A DNA stretch of 64,000 nt, taken from Acidobacteriota bacterium. Its GTDB lineage: Bacteria > Acidobacteriota > Aminicenantia > Aminicenantales > Saccharicenantaceae. The translations under genes were made by a program, and so were the position numbers. Shown here piece after piece: positions 7,970-26,875 of this stretch. The stretch's first letter is position 1; each line of letters begins with the position of its first letter. The DNA is taken from positions 1-64,000 of the forward strand of contig JBDKSB010000013.1 in NCBI GenBank assembly GCA_039683095.1, given 5' to 3'. The notes beneath the pieces were generated by a model, which was not told the DNA's origin, ran no database searches, and saw only the letters and a list, made by a program, of their open reading frames with translations.

Positions 7970-8011
7970 GTTGATCCTGCGCTTGCCATATTGATTTGAG
8001 TTGGATTAATA

Positions 8012-8030
8012 TCGTATATCGTATATCATA
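8012..8030. promoter_or_regulatory. Operator site 1 of the GntR regulon, overlapping a leftward promoter
   Basis: TCGTATATCGTATATCATA, part of a 21-bp stretch (8011-8031) repeated exactly at 19049-19069. On the minus strand TTGACT (8049-8044) plus a 17-nt spacer puts a -10 (ATATAC, 8026-8021) inside the operator, so a bound protein would block the acetyltransferase operon. A rightward TTGATT (7991-7996)-N17-GTATAT (8014-8019) may serve the DUF1961 gene and would be covered too. Confidence 0.7.
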
Positions 8031-8174
8031 GCGGTAAGAATATAGTCAAGCGGTTCCTGAAGAATGACAAAACGATATCGACCTTCACTTTTAATCAAGG
8101 ACGTCGCGGGCCGGATTGCGAGACCGGCGCGAGCCTCGTGTTCCTTGATATGCCGTTTGCGAAGGAGGATTGGA

Positions 8175-8894: not shown

Positions 8895-8910
8895 GATATA
8901 TGATATACAA
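8892..8910. promoter_or_regulatory. Operator site 2 with the GntR gene's own promoter
   Basis: On the minus strand the site reads TTGTATATCATATATCTTA, 16 of 19 matches to operator site 1. A rightward TTGACA (8880-8885)-N17-ATATAC (8903-8908) overlaps it, 25 nt before the GntR ATG. The -35/operator geometry (TTGA, 13 nt after the hexamer, then TATGATATAC) is the same as at sites 1 and 3, which implies autoregulation. Confidence 0.65.
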
Positions 8911-8933: not shown

Positions 8934-9629
8934 ATGCTTCAAAATCATGATTTAGGCTATAGGTCATTGAAAAACCTAGTTTATGATTATCTCCGGAACC
9001 AGATCCGCAGCGGCGAACTGAAGCCCGGTGATCCGATCAACATGGACCGGACGGCTAAGAGCCTCGGCATCAGCAAGACGCCGCTCAGGGAAGCCCTGAT
9101 CAAGCTCGAGACGGAAAACTTCGTCAAGATCATCCCCTGGAAAGGGGTGATCGTCAACACCGTCGAATTGAAGGATTTCGAGCAATGCTACCGGATCATC
9201 GGGGCCCTGGAGAGGTCGGCCATGCTGGCCGCGGGACCGCGGATGAAGGAATATGACATCCGCAGGCTGGAGATCCTCAACGCCGAGATGAGCGATTGCC
9301 TCTCCGCCAAGGATTTCGACGGCTATTACGCGAAGAACCTCGAGTTCCACGGCCTCTACCTGACCCTGGCCAAGAACGAGGCCCTCGTGGACGTGATCGA
9401 GATCATGAAGAAGAGGCTCTACGAATTCTCCCGCCCCGAGGAGTTCATCCCGGAATGGGAGGAGATCTCCCTGGAGGAGCATCGGAAGCTGGTGGAGTTC
9501 CTCGACCGCGGCCAGTTCCGGGAGGCGGCGGACTATCTCGAGAACACCATCTGGTCGTTCGCCGTCCAGAGACAGTACATCGTCCGCTACTACAAGTTCG
9601 AGCACGGGGCGGCGAAAAAGACCGAATGA
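8934..9629 (+). CDS. GntR-family transcriptional regulator, FadR/FCD type
   Basis: 231 aa. The N-terminal winged helix-turn-helix (about 10-80) has the GntR signature: IRSGELKPGDPI, then LGISKTPLREALIKLE. The C-terminal all-helical FCD ligand-binding domain shows the metal-binding His positions in NLEFHGLYL and EEHRKLVEFL. FCD regulators such as UxuR, ExuR and DgoR respond to uronates and sugar acids, which fits the surrounding genes. An operator lies in its own promoter, and near-identical sites lie before four neighbouring operons, so it is the obvious local repressor. Its stop overlaps the next gene's ATG. Family sure; effector unknown. Confidence 0.92.
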   Translation: MLQNHDLGYRSLKNLVYDYLRNQIRSGELKPGDPINMDRTAKSLGISKTPLREALIKLETENFVKIIPWKGVIVNTVELKDFEQCYRIIGALERSAMLAAGPRMKEYDIRRLEILNAEMSDCLSAKDFDGYYAKNLEFHGLYLTLAKNEALVDVIEIMKKRLYEFSRPEEFIPEWEEISLEEHRKLVEFLDRGQFREAADYLENTIWSFAVQRQYIVRYYKFEHGAAKKTE

Positions 9630-19049: not shown

Positions 19050-19068
19050 TCGTATATCGTATATCATA
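19050..19068. promoter_or_regulatory. Operator site 3 over the RraA-heparinase operon promoter
   Basis: Identical to operator site 1 over at least 21 bp (19049-19069). On the minus strand TTGATT (19087-19082) plus 17 nt gives ATATAC (19064-19059) inside the site, 30 nt before the RraA ATG. The -35-to-operator distance equals that at site 1. Confidence 0.72.
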
Positions 19069-19209: not shown

Positions 19210-20238
19210 TCAGATATTGATCTTTATCTTTTCCGGCTTGCCGGAAGCCAGCGACCGATGGATGGCTTCCAGGACCGCCGTGCTCCGAACGCCCTCGCGG
19301 GCATTGACGTGGGGCTCCGTGTCGTGCTCGATGGCATAGATGAAGCCCCGGATCGCCGCGGGAAAGGCCCCCTGCCATTCGTCGAAGACCTTGTAATTAA
19401 GGAAAGTCCTGGGGCAGCTGAACTTCTCCTGGAGCATGGCATCGACGGCCTCGGCCTGCCGGTCGATCTGGAGGGTGCCCTTGCTCCCGATGAGCTCCAT
19501 ATAGGAGTCGGGCATGTAGGGGCTCGTCTCCGGGTAGATCCAGACGGCCTCGTACGTGGCGAATTTCCCGCCCTCGTAGGTGACCACCGACTGGATGCCG
19601 TCATAGGTATCGAAGCCTTCCTGGACCAGGACCTTCTTGATGCCCCGGGCGTAGGCCTCGACCGGGTCGGCGTCGAACCACCAGGTCATCAGGTCGATGT
19701 CGTGGCACGACAGGAACCAGGCCGGCGTCGTCCGGGCCGACCAGGACCGGATCATCTTGGTGGGCACGGAGATCGGGTTGTTCTTCCGGGCAAAGCCGAT
19801 CATGGGCTCGCCGAGATCGCCGGAGGCCACCAGCTCCTTGACCTTGTGATAGGGCGAGAGCCAGCGATGGTTGAAATCCACCTGGAGCTTCTTCCTGGTC
19901 TTCTGGACGACCCGGCAGATCTCCTCCGCCTCGGCCTGAGAGGTCGTCAGCGGCTTTTCGACGTAGACGTGGCAGCCGGCCAGGAGCGAATCGACGACGG
20001 GGGCCTTGTGGAAGTTGTCCGGCGTCGCCACGCCCACGGCGTCGAGCCGTTCGCTCTCGAGCATCGCCTTGTGGTTCGTGTACAGGGCCTTGACGTTGAA
20101 CTCGCGGCCGCTCTTCTCGAGCCGCTCCCGGTCGGGATCGCAGAAGGCCGCGACCTCGACGCCGGGGACCAAGCCGAGGACCCGGGCCAGGGAATTGCCC
20201 ATGATCCCGGCGCCGATGATGCCGAATCTCAATGCCAT
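19210..20238 (-). CDS. Gfo/Idh/MocA-family oxidoreductase
   Basis: 342 aa. The N-terminal Rossmann fold begins FGIIGAGIMGNS, with VYVEKPLT near 93 carrying the catalytic Lys of the EKP motif. The C-terminal domain has LSCHDIDLMTWW, the usual H-x-x-D-L segment lining the active site. These enzymes oxidise or reduce sugars and inositols with NAD(P). It is third in the M20-alcohol dehydrogenase-Gfo leftward operon, and AAGGAG precedes its start. It could reduce an unsaturated uronate product or a keto-sugar; the sequence alone does not decide. Confidence 0.88.
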   Translation of the reverse strand: MALRFGIIGAGIMGNSLARVLGLVPGVEVAAFCDPDRERLEKSGREFNVKALYTNHKAMLESERLDAVGVATPDNFHKAPVVDSLLAGCHVYVEKPLTTSQAEAEEICRVVQKTRKKLQVDFNHRWLSPYHKVKELVASGDLGEPMIGFARKNNPISVPTKMIRSWSARTTPAWFLSCHDIDLMTWWFDADPVEAYARGIKKVLVQEGFDTYDGIQSVVTYEGGKFATYEAVWIYPETSPYMPDSYMELIGSKGTLQIDRQAEAVDAMLQEKFSCPRTFLNYKVFDEWQGAFPAAIRGFIYAIEHDTEPHVNAREGVRSTAVLEAIHRSLASGKPEKIKINI

Positions 20239-20269: not shown

Positions 20270-21310
20270 TCAGGGGAGGAAGATCCCCTTGATGCCCTTC
20301 TTGCTTTCGAGGTCGGCGAAGAATTCCGCCCACTTCTCGAGCCCTCCCGCGTGGGTCATGAGCGGCCGCACGTCGATCTGGCCCGAGTGGATGAGATGGA
20401 TGGCCCGGTCCCAGGAAGTGTAGGACGTGGACATGTTGAAGATCCAGTCCGCCGCCTTGGACATCATCGCGCCATAAGGGAACCGGACCTCGGGCCGGCC
20501 CGTCAGGCCGATGGCCGTGACCCGGCCCATCTTGCGAACGAGGCGCGCGGCCAGGCCGATGCCGCCCTCGGATCCGCTGGCCTCTACGACCAGGTCCGCC
20601 CCCCGTCCGCCCGTGAGGGCCTCGACGGCGGCGGGGACGTCTTCCCGCTGGACGTTCCAGACATTGTCGATGGCCGCGTTCGCCCGGGCCAGGGAGAGGC
20701 GCAGGCCCTCGTCCGCGTTCGTCCCGGCCACGCCGACCCTGGCGGCCCCGCCCGCCTTGGCGGCCATGGCCGCCATGAGCCCGATCGGCCCGGGACCGAT
20801 GACCACGACCGTGTCGGCGGGTTCGACCCGGCCGCGTTCGAGGACGTCGCGAACGACATTGGCGGCGGGCTCCACGAACGCCGCCTCGTCGAACGGCATG
20901 TCGTCCGGGATCCGGTGGAGGAGGGCCGGCTCGGGAAAGCGCATATATTTCGCGAAACATCCGTCGATCCCCCAGCCCGGCGACCTCTTGGACGCGCAGA
21001 TCTGCCTGTTGCCGGTCCGGCAGAGCCAGCAGCTGCCGCAGGCCAGGGTATGCGGCTCCCCGACGACCCTGTCCCCGACCTCCCAGCCCCGGACGTCCGG
21101 GCCCTTGGCGGCGATGACCCCCGAGAACTCGTGCCCGATGATGACGGGCGGCCAATACGGGAAGGCGTCGTGGAAGATATGCAGGTCGGTGCCGCAGATC
21201 CCGGCGGCCTTGACCTCGATGAGGACCTCGCCCGCGCCGATCTTCGGGACCGGGACGTCCCGAAGCTCGACCAGGCCCTCCCCTTTCGCGGTCTTGACCA
21301 AGGCTTTCAT
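20270..21310 (-). CDS. Zinc-dependent medium-chain alcohol/sorbitol-type dehydrogenase
   Basis: 346 aa from ATG 21310, which gives the usual MKAL family start; an in-frame ATG at 21328 would overlap the M20 stop. Catalytic zinc ligands: Cys in GICGTDLH and His-Glu in GHEFSG. The structural zinc site is C-x2-C-x2-C-x7-C in CGSCWLCRTGNRQIC. The nucleotide-binding motif is VVIGPGPIGL. Related enzymes include threonine, sorbitol and galactitol dehydrogenases. It lies 10 bp after the M20 gene and 31 bp before the Gfo gene, under operator site 4. A role oxidising a hydroxyl of the sugar or amino-sugar intermediate is inferred. Confidence 0.88.
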   Translation of the reverse strand: MKALVKTAKGEGLVELRDVPVPKIGAGEVLIEVKAAGICGTDLHIFHDAFPYWPPVIIGHEFSGVIAAKGPDVRGWEVGDRVVGEPHTLACGSCWLCRTGNRQICASKRSPGWGIDGCFAKYMRFPEPALLHRIPDDMPFDEAAFVEPAANVVRDVLERGRVEPADTVVVIGPGPIGLMAAMAAKAGGAARVGVAGTNADEGLRLSLARANAAIDNVWNVQREDVPAAVEALTGGRGADLVVEASGSEGGIGLAARLVRKMGRVTAIGLTGRPEVRFPYGAMMSKAADWIFNMSTSYTSWDRAIHLIHSGQIDVRPLMTHAGGLEKWAEFFADLESKKGIKGIFLP

Positions 21311-21320
21311 CCGGCTTTCT

Positions 21321-22553
21321 TTAGGCATGGTCCAATCCGCTCCAATCATCGATGAATCCGAGGATGGCCGCGGCGGCCTTCCGGATATCGTCGATCACGA
21401 TATGTTCGTCCTTGCTGTGCGCCGAGGCCAGGGCCCCCGGGCCGAAGACGGCCGTCGGGATGCCGAGGCCAACCGAGTATCTCCAGGCGTCACAAGAAGC
21501 GTTCATGAACGCCGGCCGCGACGCGGCGCCGGCCCGGCGGCCCGAGGCCGCGAGCCCCTCGACCAGAGGATGATCGGCCGGCAGGAACGACGGGTCGTTG
21601 TTGAGCATGGGGAAGGTGATCTCGGCCCGGAAGGGGCTGACGGCCCGGGCCAGCTTCTCCCGGATCTCTTCCCTGCGGAAGGGAGGGAGGAAGCCGAAGA
21701 CGCCTTTGAGGACGGCTTCCGAGGGCGAGGCCGCCGGCCAGTTCCCCGCTTGAAGCATCCCGAAGGTGCAGGGCGCCGGGTCGGGGTGCCCGGCGATCGC
21801 GGCGACGCTCTTCCGGGAGACATCCAAGGTTTCGGCCCGGACCGCCTCGATGGCCTCCATGACCCGGATGGCCGTCTTGAGGGCGCTCGAGGTCGTGCCC
21901 GGGCTGCCGCTGTGGCCGGCGATACCGGACGTCCTGACCTCGAACCAGACCGCCCCGCGCACGAGGTGAGCGACCTCGAGGGCCGTCGGCTCCAGGACGA
22001 TCGCGGCGTCCGCGGTTAGCCCGTTCCGCTGGACGAAAAGGGTGCCGTTGCCGCCGCATTCCTCCTCGAGCACGAAATCCGCCGTCAGGTCGCCCCGCGG
22101 CTTGAGACCGAGGTCGGAGAGCGTCTTGAAGACGAGCCAGAGCACGGCGGCCTGGCCCTTGGCGTCGCAGGATCCCCTGCCGAAGACTTTCCCGTCCGAT
22201 ATCCTGGCCTTGAACGCATCGTCCTGCCCGGGCGTGGCCGGCACGACATCGAGATGAGTGTTCAAGGCCAGGCTCCTCCCCTTGCCTGTCCCGAGAAGCT
22301 TCAGCCTCAGGTTGGCCGCGCCGGCATAGCTGAAGCCATCCAGCCGGAAGGCGTAATCGGGATCGTCCTGGAGAGAGTCGGGAACGGGAATGAGTTCCAC
22401 GGAATCGGCGCAGCCTTCGAGCCGGGTTTTGAGGTAGCGGCCGGGACCGGCTTCGTTCCCGCGCGTCGAGGGGAACGAGATCAGCTCGGCCAGGATCTCG
22501 ATCGATCCTTCAAGATTCTTATCGATCGTCCGGAAAATATCGGGTTTGTTCAT
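21321..22553 (-). CDS. M20-family (ArgE/DapE-type) deacylase or peptidase
   Basis: 410 aa. Metal-ligand motifs: NTHLDVVP (His100, Asp102), VFGRGSCDAKGQ (bridging Asp near 131), VLEEECGGNG (catalytic and metal Glu near 165), and His in the C-terminal SAHSKDEH. M20 enzymes remove acyl groups from amino acids (ArgE, aminoacylase) or cleave dipeptides. Being first gene after the operator, opposite KDG kinase and near an aminotransferase, it may strip an N-acyl or N-aminoacyl group from the imported sugar acid or a linked amino acid. No strong ribosome site is visible before its ATG. Confidence 0.85.
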   Translation of the reverse strand: MNKPDIFRTIDKNLEGSIEILAELISFPSTRGNEAGPGRYLKTRLEGCADSVELIPVPDSLQDDPDYAFRLDGFSYAGAANLRLKLLGTGKGRSLALNTHLDVVPATPGQDDAFKARISDGKVFGRGSCDAKGQAAVLWLVFKTLSDLGLKPRGDLTADFVLEEECGGNGTLFVQRNGLTADAAIVLEPTALEVAHLVRGAVWFEVRTSGIAGHSGSPGTTSSALKTAIRVMEAIEAVRAETLDVSRKSVAAIAGHPDPAPCTFGMLQAGNWPAASPSEAVLKGVFGFLPPFRREEIREKLARAVSPFRAEITFPMLNNDPSFLPADHPLVEGLAASGRRAGAASRPAFMNASCDAWRYSVGLGIPTAVFGPGALASAHSKDEHIVIDDIRKAAAAILGFIDDWSGLDHA

Positions 22554-22581
22554 TTTTCTACTTGCTATTCATAAGCAAAGA

Positions 22582-22633
22582 TTGATAACATATATCATAT
22601 ACGATATATATCATGCTGTAGCTGTTTCGTCAA
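22582..22633. promoter_or_regulatory. Operator site 4 in a bidirectional promoter with one shared -10
   Basis: Rightward: TTGATA (22582-22587), 17-nt spacer, TATATA (22605-22610). Leftward: TTGACG (22633-22628), 17-nt spacer, and the same TATATA, which is self-complementary. The operator (22593-22611, read on the minus strand, 15 of 19 matches to site 1) covers the shared -10, so one bound regulator could silence both the M20 operon and the KDG kinase operon. Confidence 0.65.
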
Positions 22634-22658
22634 AAAGAATTTTGAAGGAGGGATGCGC

Positions 22659-23687
22659 GTGATAAAGGTCGCGACATTCGGCGAGATCATGCTCAGGCTC
22701 TCTTCCCCGGGGAAGGAGAAACTTCTCCAGTCTCCATTATTCAATGCCACATTCGGAGGGGGAGAAGCAAACGTCGCCGTATCATTGGCGTGCTTCGGCC
22801 ATGAGGCCCGGTTCATATCCGTCATTCCCGACAATCCCGTCGGCGACGCCGCTGTCGCGGAGCTGAGGCGCCGCGGCGTCGGGACGGATTTCGTCGTTCG
22901 CAAAGGAAAGCGGCTCGGCATCTATTTCGCCGAGACGGGGGCCGATCGCCGCCCGTCCAAGGTCGTCTACGACCGGGAGCGTTCCGCGATCGCCGAGGCC
23001 GTCCCCGGCGACATCGATTGGGACGAGGCCCTCCAGGGCGTCGACTGGTTCCACACCTCGGGCATCACGCCGGCCATCAGCGCCTCCGCGGCGGAGCTGA
23101 CCGTGGAGGGCCTGCAGGCGGCCAGGCGCCGGGGGGTCACGATCTCCGTGGACCTCAACTATCGCGGCAAGCTCTGGAAATACGGGACTCCGGCGCCGGA
23201 CATCATGCGCCGCGTCCTGGCCCTGGCCGACATCGCCATCGGCAACGAAGAGGACTGCCAGAAATCCCTGGGCCTCGCGGCCCCGGGCGATGTCCGGTCG
23301 GGGCGCCTCGATCTCGCCGGCTACGAGGCCCTGACCCTCGAGGTCCTAAAACTGTTCCCGAACCTCAAGACGATCGCGCTGACCCTCCGCGAGAGCTTCA
23401 GCGCCGACCGCAACGGCTGGTCGGCCGTCCTGAGAGATGCCGGCGGGTTCATCCAGGGTCCCAGGTACGAGATCCCGGTCATCGTCGACCGGATAGGAAG
23501 CGGGGACGCCTTCGCGGCCGGCCTCATTCACGGGCTGAAGAAATTCGGGCGAGGGGCGGAAGCCCTGTCCTTCGCGGTCGCGGCTTCCTGCCTGAAGCAT
23601 TCGATCCCCGGCGATTTCAACCTGGTCTCGGAGGCCGACGTCCTGTCCCTCATGCGCGGCGACGCTTCGGGGCGCGTGCAGCGATGA
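22659..23687 (+). CDS. kdgK: 2-keto-3-deoxygluconate kinase (PfkB family)
   Basis: 342 aa. I choose GTG 22659, because GGAGGG (22647-22652) then lies 6 nt away; the ATG at 22653 would abut the ribosome site. The product opens [14 protein letters not shown], with [16 protein letters not shown] (PfkB signature 1) and [16 protein letters not shown] near 277-292 (signature 2, catalytic Asp). FGEIMLRL plus GGGEANVA is typical of KDG kinases, which phosphorylate 2-keto-3-deoxygluconate to KDPG, the substrate of the aldolase at 28304-28954. It starts the rightward operon with the aminotransferase and symporter. A related keto-deoxy sugar acid is possible. Confidence 0.85.
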
Positions 23688-23773: not shown

Positions 23774-25066
23774 ATGCCTAATTCCGGTTCAAAAACCAAA
23801 GAGTTCCTGGAGATATCCCGCAAGTACGAGCCCGGCTGCATGAACTGGCAGGCGCCCGTCGTCTGGGACCACGCCCTCGGAGCGGAGATCTGGGATGTCG
23901 ACGGCAAGCACTATATCGACTGGACGTCGGGCGTCCTGGTGGCCAATGTCGGCCACGCCCACCCGCGCCTGGCCGAGGCCCTCGCCTCGCAGGCTTCCCG
24001 GCTCCTCAATCCCTTCGACTTCCCGACCCCGGAGCGGCTGCGGCTGGCCCGGAAGATCGTTGAAACCACGCCGCCGCACCTGGACAAGGTCATCTTCGTC
24101 ACGACCGGGTCCGAGGCCGCCGACGCCGCCATCCGCCTTGTCAAAAGATACAAGGGCAAGTACGAGATCGTCTCGTTCTGGGGAGGCTTCCACGGCCGGA
24201 CGTTCGGGCCGATGAGCCTCAGCGGGATCCCCAAGATCAGGCGGAATTACGGGCCGCTCGTGCCCGGAACGATCCTGGTCCCCTACCCCTACTGCTATCG
24301 CTGCCCGTTCGGGAAAACCCATCCGGAATGCGGGCTGTTCTGCCTCGACTTCATCGACGAGTCGGTCCGGGTCCAGTCCTCGGGCTCCCTGGCGGCCGTC
24401 ATGATCGAGCCCTACCAGGGGACGGCGGGCTTCATCTTCCCCCCTCCGGGCTTCCTGAAGAAGCTCGAAGCCTGGGCCAGGAAGAAGGGCCTCGTTTTCA
24501 TCCTGGACGAGGTCCAGGCCTCCTACGGGCGGACGGGGACGATGTGGGCCCTCGAGCACGAGGGGCTCGAGCCGGACGTCCTGCTTCTCGGCAAGGGGAT
24601 CGGCAGCGGCGTGCCCATCGCCGCCGTCGCGACCCGGTCCGAGATCATCTCCTGCCTCGATTCGGGGGAGCTGTCCTCGACCATGGGCGGGAATCCCCTC
24701 AGCTGCGCGGGAGCGCTGGCGGTTTTCGATATCATCGAAAAGGAAGGGCTCGTCGAGAAGGCGGCCAAGAACGGCGCCTACCTCAAGGACAAGCTCCTCG
24801 GGCTCATGGCCAAGCACGCCGTCATCGGCGACGTCCGGGGCATGGGCCTCGTCATGGGCATCGAGTTCGTCAAGGACCGCGCGACCAGGGAACCGGCGCC
24901 GGACACGGCCAAGCAGGTCGTCGTCAAGTGCGTCGAGAACGGGCTGATGGTCGGGAAGCTCGGCATCTACGGCAACGTCATGCGCGTGGCCCCTCCCCTG
25001 GTCATCACGCCCGAGCTCATCGACCGCTCGGTCGGCATCCTGGACAAGGTCCTGTCGGAGCTTTAG
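23774..25066 (+). CDS. Class III PLP-dependent aminotransferase
   Basis: 430 aa. Features of the 4-aminobutyrate/ornithine aminotransferase fold: GKHYIDWTSG, VTTGSEAADAAI, FHGRTFG, FILDEVQASYGRTG (Asp near 246 binding the pyridine N) and LLLGKGIGSG (Schiff-base Lys near 274). A Cys-rich insert, YCYRCPFGKTHPECGLFC (about 175-192), is unusual for the family. AAGGAAA precedes the ATG. In the KDG kinase operon, and opposite an M20 deacylase, it may remove an amino group freed by deacylation of an amino sugar acid or amino acid. Family sure; substrate inferred. Confidence 0.88.
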   Translation: MPNSGSKTKEFLEISRKYEPGCMNWQAPVVWDHALGAEIWDVDGKHYIDWTSGVLVANVGHAHPRLAEALASQASRLLNPFDFPTPERLRLARKIVETTPPHLDKVIFVTTGSEAADAAIRLVKRYKGKYEIVSFWGGFHGRTFGPMSLSGIPKIRRNYGPLVPGTILVPYPYCYRCPFGKTHPECGLFCLDFIDESVRVQSSGSLAAVMIEPYQGTAGFIFPPPGFLKKLEAWARKKGLVFILDEVQASYGRTGTMWALEHEGLEPDVLLLGKGIGSGVPIAAVATRSEIISCLDSGELSSTMGGNPLSCAGALAVFDIIEKEGLVEKAAKNGAYLKDKLLGLMAKHAVIGDVRGMGLVMGIEFVKDRATREPAPDTAKQVVVKCVENGLMVGKLGIYGNVMRVAPPLVITPELIDRSVGILDKVLSEL

Positions 25067-25126: not shown

Positions 25127-26875
25127 ATGCAGAGCATCCGGCTCCCGGATTACCTGGTGATCCTGGCCTACTTCGTCGTCATCCTCGCCATGGGCTTCTA
25201 TTTCGCCCGCTACATCAAGAAGGCCAAGGACTATTTCGCGGCCGGCAATACCATGCCCTGGTGGCTGGCCGGGACGTCCTTCTTCAAGGCCTCGTTCAGC
25301 GCGCTCCTGTTCGTCATCTACAACGAGATCGCCTACAAGTACGGCATCGTCGTCATCATCATCATGTGGATCTTCCCCATCTGCGTCCTCCTCTCGGGCC
25401 ATTTCCTGGCCCGGCGCTGGCGGCGGTCCAGGGTCGTCACGCCCCTGGGCTTCATGGAGCGGCGCTACAATTCGACCACCCACCAGGTCTTCGTCTGGAC
25501 CGGCATCCCCCTGCGCATGTCCGACAACGCCCTCAAGATCCTGTCGACCTCGATCATCTTCGTCGTGGCGCTGCGGGGCCTGGGGCTCTCCCTGGCCGCC
25601 TTCATGGCCATCATCGGCGTGATCATGATCCTCTACTCGTTCATGGGCGGGCAGATGACCATCATGATCACGGATTTCGTCAACGTCATCATCCTGGCCG
25701 TTTCCTGCATCACCCTTTTCGTCCTGACCCTGCTAAAGGTCGGCAACCTGGGCGAATTCGTCCACCGGCTGCCGCCCGGGTTCTTCAACCCGGCCCCCGA
25801 GCCGTACGGCTGGTCCTACCTCGTCTTCACGGTCTTCCTCATCATGACCCTGAGCTACAGCGGCAGCTGGGCCCTCGTCCAGAAATACAACACCCTCAAG
25901 AGCGAGAAGGAGATCGGGAAGATGATCCGCTGGGTCGCCTTGCTGATGTTCGTCACGCCGCCCATCTTCTTTTTCCCCGGCATCGCGGCCAGGGTCCTCT
26001 TGCCTGAGATCCCCAACGCCAAGGAGGTCTACGCCCTCATCAGCATGAAGATCATGCCCGTGGGCCTCATGGGCTTCGTCCTGGCCTCCATCATCAGCTC
26101 GACCATGTCCACCCTGGGCTCGGAGTTCAACACCCTGTCCGGGATCCTGACCCGCGATTTCTTCAAAAAGAAGATCCGGCCGAACCTTACCGAGAAGCAG
26201 GAGATCTTCACCGGCCGGGCCTTCACGATCGTCATCGGCGCCCTGACTATCTTTCTGGCCCTGCTCTTCAACAGCCTGAAGGGCTTCAACCTCATGGACA
26301 TCATGTTCAGGATCTTCGGCGCGTTCGGCCCGGCCACCATCATCCCCCTGGCCTTCGGCCTCCTGTTCCGGAAGTTCAACTCCCGGGGCGCCCTCTGGGG
26401 CCTCGCGGCCGGCTGCCTCACCGGCTTCGTCCTCGTCCTGGCCAACTTCTTCCTGGTCCAGAAGTTCTCCGCGCAGATGTCGGACAACCGGACGCTGGAG
26501 TTCTGGCTGCGCAGCGGCTGGAACTCGGCCACCAACGTCCTGAGCATCGCCGCGACGGTCATCGGCATGTGGCTCGGGTCCGCGACCAAGCCGACGCCCG
26601 CCGAGGAAACGGAACGGGTCGGGAAGTTCTTCGCCGACCTGGAGGTCCCCTTCCTGGCCGAAGAGACGGCGGACAAGCCCCTGTCCCCCTGGAAGATCAT
26701 CGGCTTAATGGTCGGGGGCTTCGGCGTCCTCATCGCCGCGATCTCCCTCTTCATCCTGATCGGCTACAAGGACGCCGCCGCCTTCCGGGCCAACCTGATC
26801 GTAGCCGCGGTCCTGATCGTTATGGGGACGGCCATGTGGCTGGCCACGAGGCCGGCCAAGGCCCGCGATAACTGA
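25127..26875 (+). CDS. Sodium:solute symporter (SSS family)
   Basis: 582 aa with about 13-14 hydrophobic segments. SSS features include the N-terminal AGNTMPWWLAGTSFFKAS region, GGQMTIMITDFVNVIILAV (about 178-196, the conserved T-D segment) and SSTMSTLGSEFNTLSGIL (about 325-342, near the Na2-site Ser/Thr). It imports a small organic solute with sodium across the inner membrane. GGAGGAG precedes the ATG. As last gene of the kdgK operon it is the obvious importer for the sugar acid or unsaturated oligouronide; no TonB/SusCD-like uptake genes are in the window. Confidence 0.9.
   Translation: MQSIRLPDYLVILAYFVVILAMGFYFARYIKKAKDYFAAGNTMPWWLAGTSFFKASFSALLFVIYNEIAYKYGIVVIIIMWIFPICVLLSGHFLARRWRRSRVVTPLGFMERRYNSTTHQVFVWTGIPLRMSDNALKILSTSIIFVVALRGLGLSLAAFMAIIGVIMILYSFMGGQMTIMITDFVNVIILAVSCITLFVLTLLKVGNLGEFVHRLPPGFFNPAPEPYGWSYLVFTVFLIMTLSYSGSWALVQKYNTLKSEKEIGKMIRWVALLMFVTPPIFFFPGIAARVLLPEIPNAKEVYALISMKIMPVGLMGFVLASIISSTMSTLGSEFNTLSGILTRDFFKKKIRPNLTEKQEIFTGRAFTIVIGALTIFLALLFNSLKGFNLMDIMFRIFGAFGPATIIPLAFGLLFRKFNSRGALWGLAAGCLTGFVLVLANFFLVQKFSAQMSDNRTLEFWLRSGWNSATNVLSIAATVIGMWLGSATKPTPAEETERVGKFFADLEVPFLAEETADKPLSPWKIIGLMVGGFGVLIAAISLFILIGYKDAAAFRANLIVAAVLIVMGTAMWLATRPAKARDN

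Follow-up and report, generated by a model that had tools for sequence, protein, structure and literature searches.

A candidate tandem-repeat operator for an FCD-type GntR regulator over overlapping candidate promoters of the divergent kdgK and M20 gene runs

In the 64-kb stretch of DNA analysed here (the window), a candidate operator of three tandem 7-bp units (22589-22609) lies over overlapping candidate promoters for two divergent gene runs. We favour, with a probability of about 0.68, the interpretation of a local catabolic regulon, in which the product of the gene at 8934-9629, a repressor of the FCD-type GntR kind, would bind these units over the overlapping divergent promoters of the kdgK and M20 runs. 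Bound there, the repressor would cover the -10 regions of both the leftward promoter (M20 run) and the rightward promoter (kdgK run), so that both operons would be silent without inducer. Release of the repressor would be triggered by a metabolite of the pathway, possibly KDG or else an unsaturated uronate, after which the overlap of the promoters would let polymerase occupy only one of the two orientations at once.

Gene context of the divergent gap

The intergenic gap extends for approximately 105 bp, from the start of the M20 peptidase-family gene at 22553 to kdgK, and is AT-rich. The M20 gene (21321-22553, minus strand) is followed leftward by a zinc alcohol-dehydrogenase family gene (20270-21349) and a Gfo/Idh/MocA oxidoreductase (19210-20238). 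On the plus strand, the first gene codes for a PfkB-family sugar kinase resembling KDG kinases (kdgK, 22659-23687), which scores below the NCBIfam curated cut-offs, and it precedes genes for a class III aminotransferase (23774-25066) and a sodium:solute symporter (25127-26875). The kdgK start is probably GTG 22659 rather than ATG 22653, because the aligned codon of the nearest relative (G011) is ATG and the upstream GGAGGG is then well placed. The cluster also encodes an RraA-like protein, a KDPG aldolase and a protein with a weak match to heparinase II/III (below the Pfam cut-off), a gene content from which we infer a role in the breakdown of uronic-acid polymers.

A previous sequence-only reading had described two divergent gene runs flanking the letters TTGATA-N17-TATATA-N17-CGTCAA. 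The two runs are supported, and the letters are found exactly at 22582-22633, with TTGATA at 22582-22587, TATATA at 22605-22610 and CGTCAA at 22628-22633, the latter being TTGACG when read on the minus strand.

Relatives of kdgK (E-value ≤ 1e-60) are present in 13 of the 34 family genomes analysed. For M20 we retrieved 52 loci, two of which (L072 and L073) are close, the other 50 showing 24-31% identity. At L073 (8567-11242), the M20 gene (61% identical) and the aminotransferase gene are divergent immediate neighbours, kdgK not lying between them, which hints that M20 and the aminotransferase are partners. No match to the operator 16-mer was found at this locus, and no TATATA was seen by eye in its M20/aminotransferase gap; this locus counts against the interpretation favoured here.

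A tandem-repeat operator and its putative regulator

The operator unit is (C/G)ATATA(C/T), i.e. SATATAY, repeated in tandem every 7 bp. Three units, CATATAT CATATAC GATATAT, occupy 22589-22609 (plus strand), the first of which is CATATCT in G011, leaving two exact ones. Sister operators are found at 8014-8027 (GATATAC GATATAC, minus strand), between two divergent ORFs; at 8895-8908 (GATATAT GATATAC, plus strand), in the promoter region of the putative regulator gene itself (TTGACA-N18-TGA-TATACA); and at 19052-19065 (GATATAC GATATAC, minus strand), upstream of the RraA-like gene. Two of the 13 genus genomes contain exact unit pairs, SATATAYSATATAY, at five places in the source genome (G000; two of them overlapping at 22589-22609) and four in G011, all inside the cluster, and the reversed-pattern control gave none.

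A simple palindromic operator, ATATCRTATAYGATAT, was also considered, and positions 22593-22606 do form a pseudo-palindrome, TATCATATACGATA. We replaced it by the tandem units because the palindrome sites come in pairs 7 bp apart (8009/8016, 19047/19054 and 22585/22592) and because the exact unit pairs are confined to the cluster. A looser scan with the palindrome returned 16 places (against four for the reversed control), comprising seven in the cluster, one at C8:67627 and eight elsewhere, each with three mismatches (L008-L015); having inspected the sequences of the latter, we take them for chance matches. The site at C8:67627, on another contig of the source genome, lies upstream of a TonB-type receptor gene, between it and a CBM9/heparinase-like gene pair. 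The comparison drew on three of 11 stretches retrieved, namely that of G011 and two of the source genome itself, on contigs C8 and C12.

Positions 22582-22613 are identical to G011 in 31 of 32 letters, and the flanks in 19/28 and 19/34 (MAFFT), the 19/34 varying with the aligner. The right flank in particular is aligner-dependent, as BLAST introduces one gap and thereby brings the leftward -35 hexamers into register, whereas MAFFT matches only 2/6 of their letters. The operator by itself may explain why 22582-22613 is conserved, and this comparison has little power because the units were found in no more than two genomes, which are closely related.

The gap at 7983-8049 is a second one between divergent ORFs that carries the same operator. 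There, a leftward promoter candidate, TTGACT-N18-TATACG, overlaps a rightward one, TTGCCA-N18-TAATAT, and the same letters are present in G011.

The proposed repressor (8934-9629, plus strand) has the FCD/FadR-type GntR architecture, with an N-terminal helix-turn-helix (PF00392, 50.7 bits) and a C-terminal FCD domain (PF07729, 54.9 bits), both over the cut-off. At E ≤ 1e-70 it is present in two of the 142 class genomes, which are the same two that carry the operator pairs (G000 and G011). None of the other three GntR-type genes found in the source genome lies on this contig, and an operator unit pair sits in the promoter region of the 8934-9629 gene itself. GntR relatives are also present in 30 of the 34 family genomes, with 42-50% identity in most, but these look like a paralogue. 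No assignment to NanR is obtained (NF003011, 41.3 bits against a cut-off of 260), and TIGR03338 (phnR), the highest-scoring NCBIfam model, reaches only 85.7 where its cut-off is 271.5. The FadR-subfamily palindrome NyGTM-N0-1-KACNy was compared by eye, revealing no GT-AC pair at any of the operator sites, which appear to be better described by tandem SATATAY.

The sequence-only reading had placed a single operator over both promoters, occupied by one bound regulator. The candidate units at 22589-22609 agree with the first part of this proposal; the second may need to be widened to several dimers, given that the operator contains two or three tandem units.

Elsewhere in the source genome (C11:64655-64682), TTGACA-N16-TATATA is found approximately 90 bp upstream of the helix-turn-helix match of another GntR-type gene.

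Candidate promoters in the two directions

Promoters were scored with an E. coli-type hexamer matrix, using E. coli frequencies, and with spacer penalties and a bonus of 1.5 for an upstream TG that are our own choice. Scores were compared with 2000 dinucleotide shuffles of the gap (22554-22658) and, at fixed positions, with 2000 shuffles of the flanks while holding 22585-22614, the units alone (22589-22609) or 22583-22613. The genome sets comprised 13 genomes of the genus, 34 of the family, 142 of the class and 396 of the phylum. A simple consensus scan listed ATAACA-N18-TATCAT and omitted the two promoters of the sequence-only reading, because its rule needs a T at the final -10 position.

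The leftward candidate, TTGACG-N17-TGATATATA, has its -35 at 22628-22633 (minus strand) and a TGA directly upstream of TATATA (22611-22613, also in G011), giving an extended -10. It scores 10.43 and is the top minus-strand candidate both here and in G011, where its -35 is TTGACA. At its fixed position this score was reached in only 4, 3 and 10 of 2000 shuffles of the flanks when 22585-22614, the units or 22583-22613, respectively, were held, and the corresponding G011 score in none of 2000, whether the units or the block were held. A score of at least 10.43 occurred anywhere in 156/2000 shuffled gaps, and across the whole window there are four such matches on the plus strand and six on the minus strand. 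Of the two directions, the leftward promoter through TATATA is the better-supported candidate. A further leftward hexamer, TATGAT (22599-22594), with A at -11 and T at -7, was set aside; it is TATGAG in G011.

In the rightward direction the -10 is ambiguous, as two hexamers are candidates. TATATA, preceded at 17 nt by TTGATA, scores 8.93. The -35 of this pair (22582-22587) itself overlaps a different element, since TTGATAACAT can be read as an extended -10, TGA-TAACAT (22583-22591, identical in G011), located 18 nt after TTGCTA (22562-22567), which is TTGATA in G011. This second promoter, TTGCTA-N18-TAACAT with TG, spans 22562-22591, places its -10 19 bp to the left of TATATA, and scores 9.30 in G000 and 11.23 in G011, against 8.93 for TATATA in both genomes. 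The ranking in G000, a margin of 0.37 on an E. coli matrix, depends on the TG bonus, without which TAACAT scores 7.80 (9.73 in G011).

At fixed positions, the rightward TATATA score was reached in 490/2000 shuffles with 22585-22614 held and in 17/2000 with the units held, the value of 2000/2000 with 22583-22613 held being trivial, as that block contains nearly all of TTGATA; in G011 it was reached in 63/2000 (units) and 2000/2000 (block). For TAACAT, the figures were 90, 5 and 124 of 2000 in the source genome, and 6/2000 (units) and 94/2000 (block) in G011. A rightward score of at least 9.30 appeared anywhere in 383/2000 shuffled gaps, and together with a leftward score of at least 10.43 in 24/2000. 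A third hexamer, TATCAT (22609-22614), with ATAACA at 18 nt (8.75; A at -11, T at -7), was set aside; it is TATCAC in G011.

Alternative arrangements of the overlapping promoters

The sequence-only reading had proposed that a single TATATA serves as -10 in both directions, with exact 17-nt spacing on both sides. In this case transcription would start near 22617 rightward and near 22598 leftward, 19 bp apart, an arrangement that we consider possible but would not expect. In its favour, the window contains no -10 other than that at 22605 that is exactly shared by two promoters both scoring at least 7, and none of the 2000 gap shuffles gave one with scores of at least 8.9 (opposed -10s no more than 5 bp apart at this level were found in 53/2000). 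Both rightward hexamers and their spacer of 17 are unchanged in G011. TATATA is also plausible as a -10, although less common than TATAAT: TTGACA-N16-18-TATATA matches 55 times in the 13 genus genomes, against one in the reversed control (both strands, with two places counted twice for different spacers and three that are also TATAAT places; the G011 leftward promoter is among them), compared with 149 against one for the TATAAT counterpart. On the other hand, TATATA carries an A on both strands at -7, where a T is well conserved, -7 and -11 being the best-conserved positions of the -10 element (PMC10268837). Its rightward score is readily reached by chance once 22585-22614 is held, and is exceeded by that of TAACAT in both genomes. 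Moreover, the symmetrical spacing, although exact here, is not kept in G011, where the leftward TATATA has a spacer of 16 (11.25) and is nearly tied by TATATC at 18 nt from TTGACA (10.25). The sequence supports the proposal as regards a leftward candidate through TATATA; the use of TATATA rightward is in doubt. The pattern TTGAY-N18-TATATA-N18-RTCAA occurs in two of the 396 phylum genomes (reversed control, 0), namely the source genome and G008, and is absent from G011. The G008 match (L070, 1501-1552) lies on a palindrome, GTTGTATATATATACAAC, upstream of a helix-turn-helix/M78 peptidase gene pair, and no rightward ORF of at least 90 aa was found to start near it, so that a palindrome can be enough to produce the pattern.

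Overlapping promoters that do not share a -10, with TAACAT used rightward and TATATA leftward and both starts near 22598, come closer, at a little under even odds. TAACAT has A at -11 and T at -7, carries the TG, ranks first among the rightward candidates of both genomes with scores rarely reached when the units alone are held, and resembles the top rightward candidate of a sister site (TTGCCA-N18-TAATAT, 7983-8012, with the same letters in G011). Yet it matches TATAAT in only four of six positions, its -35 TTGCTA is weak, and comparable scores become more frequent when wider blocks are held or the whole gap is shuffled. We regard as the least probable of these readings that TATATA is a mere operator or AT-rich tract, the real promoters lying elsewhere or using other sigma factors. 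In its favour, five of the six TATATA bases fall within operator units, and such units are also present at other sites, where no -10 is exactly shared; no -10 hexamer here equals the consensus, and good single scores are not rare in gap shuffles. The rarity of the leftward score at its position speaks against it, as do the top leftward or own-gene candidates at the sister sites, TTGACT-N18-TGA-TATACG, TTGACA-N18-TGA-TATACA and TTGATT-N18-TGA-TATACG.

A further possibility, which we think unlikely, is that the operator is at the same time a promoter code, the unit (T)GATATAY being itself an extended -10 whose letters would be read by both repressor and sigma factor. At kdgK/M20 the symmetry would then bring both directions onto one hexamer, so that the co-induced operons would compete for it, which would fix their ratio.

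Comparison with known systems

Bidirectional promoters, described by Warman, Grainger and colleagues, use a near-symmetric -10 in either orientation, with divergent starts 7-25 bp apart (most commonly 18 bp), occupation in one orientation blocking the other, and 24% of those of E. coli sit between divergent genes (PMC12825309, PMC10268837). From coordinates alone, the separation predicted here is 19 bp if TATATA is shared; with TAACAT as the rightward -10 it is approximately 0 bp, which would put both starts at almost the same position and leave the two directions with separate -10s. TATATA lacks the reciprocal pairing of A at -11 with T at -7 that characterizes the 18-bp form, which leaves the comparison with the wider class unaffected. 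Two sigma-70 polymerases would be expected to exclude each other here, whichever rightward -10 is used. The mutually exclusive transcription of the two operons that had been proposed is consistent with this steric overlap of the polymerase sites, but competition does not necessarily follow, as the basal activity of five tested E. coli bidirectional promoters was reported to be too low for it (PMC12825309).

The site is probably a new case of an already-known arrangement, overlapping divergent promoters on one operator, the principle of which is known, with the exactly shared -10 as a possible feature. What the present case adds is a link between a GntR regulator of a little-studied lineage and a defined candidate operator with its putative target operons, as well as a case in which the control of bidirectional promoters by a single repressor could be examined at the level of sequence outside well-studied species. 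Among the titles listed in the literature on Acidobacteria bidirectional promoters, BirA, GntR with KDG/alginate and Aminicenantes/GntR, none appeared to be a closer parallel.

At PacrA/acrR, where overlapping promoters share part of the -10, AcrR lowers both divergent RNAs (PMC12825309), which is similar to the single repressor proposed here over overlapping divergent promoters. The two cases differ in the regulator, which is of the TetR family there and an FCD-GntR protein here, and in the location of its gene, which in our case is approximately 13 kb away, outside the divergent pair. As for the operator, the nearest type that we found is that of NanR, reported as (GGTATA)3 in E. coli (PMC8012715) and as direct repeats of TGGTATAW (PMC4494728). 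Both systems, ours as proposed, combine a GntR-family regulator, a sugar-acid regulon and three short tandem direct repeats. In contrast to NanR, the unit proposed here is (C/G)ATATA(C/T), recurring at exact 7-bp intervals, and the helix-turn-helix match of the regulator begins at residue 15, leaving no room for the 32-residue N-terminal extension of NanR.
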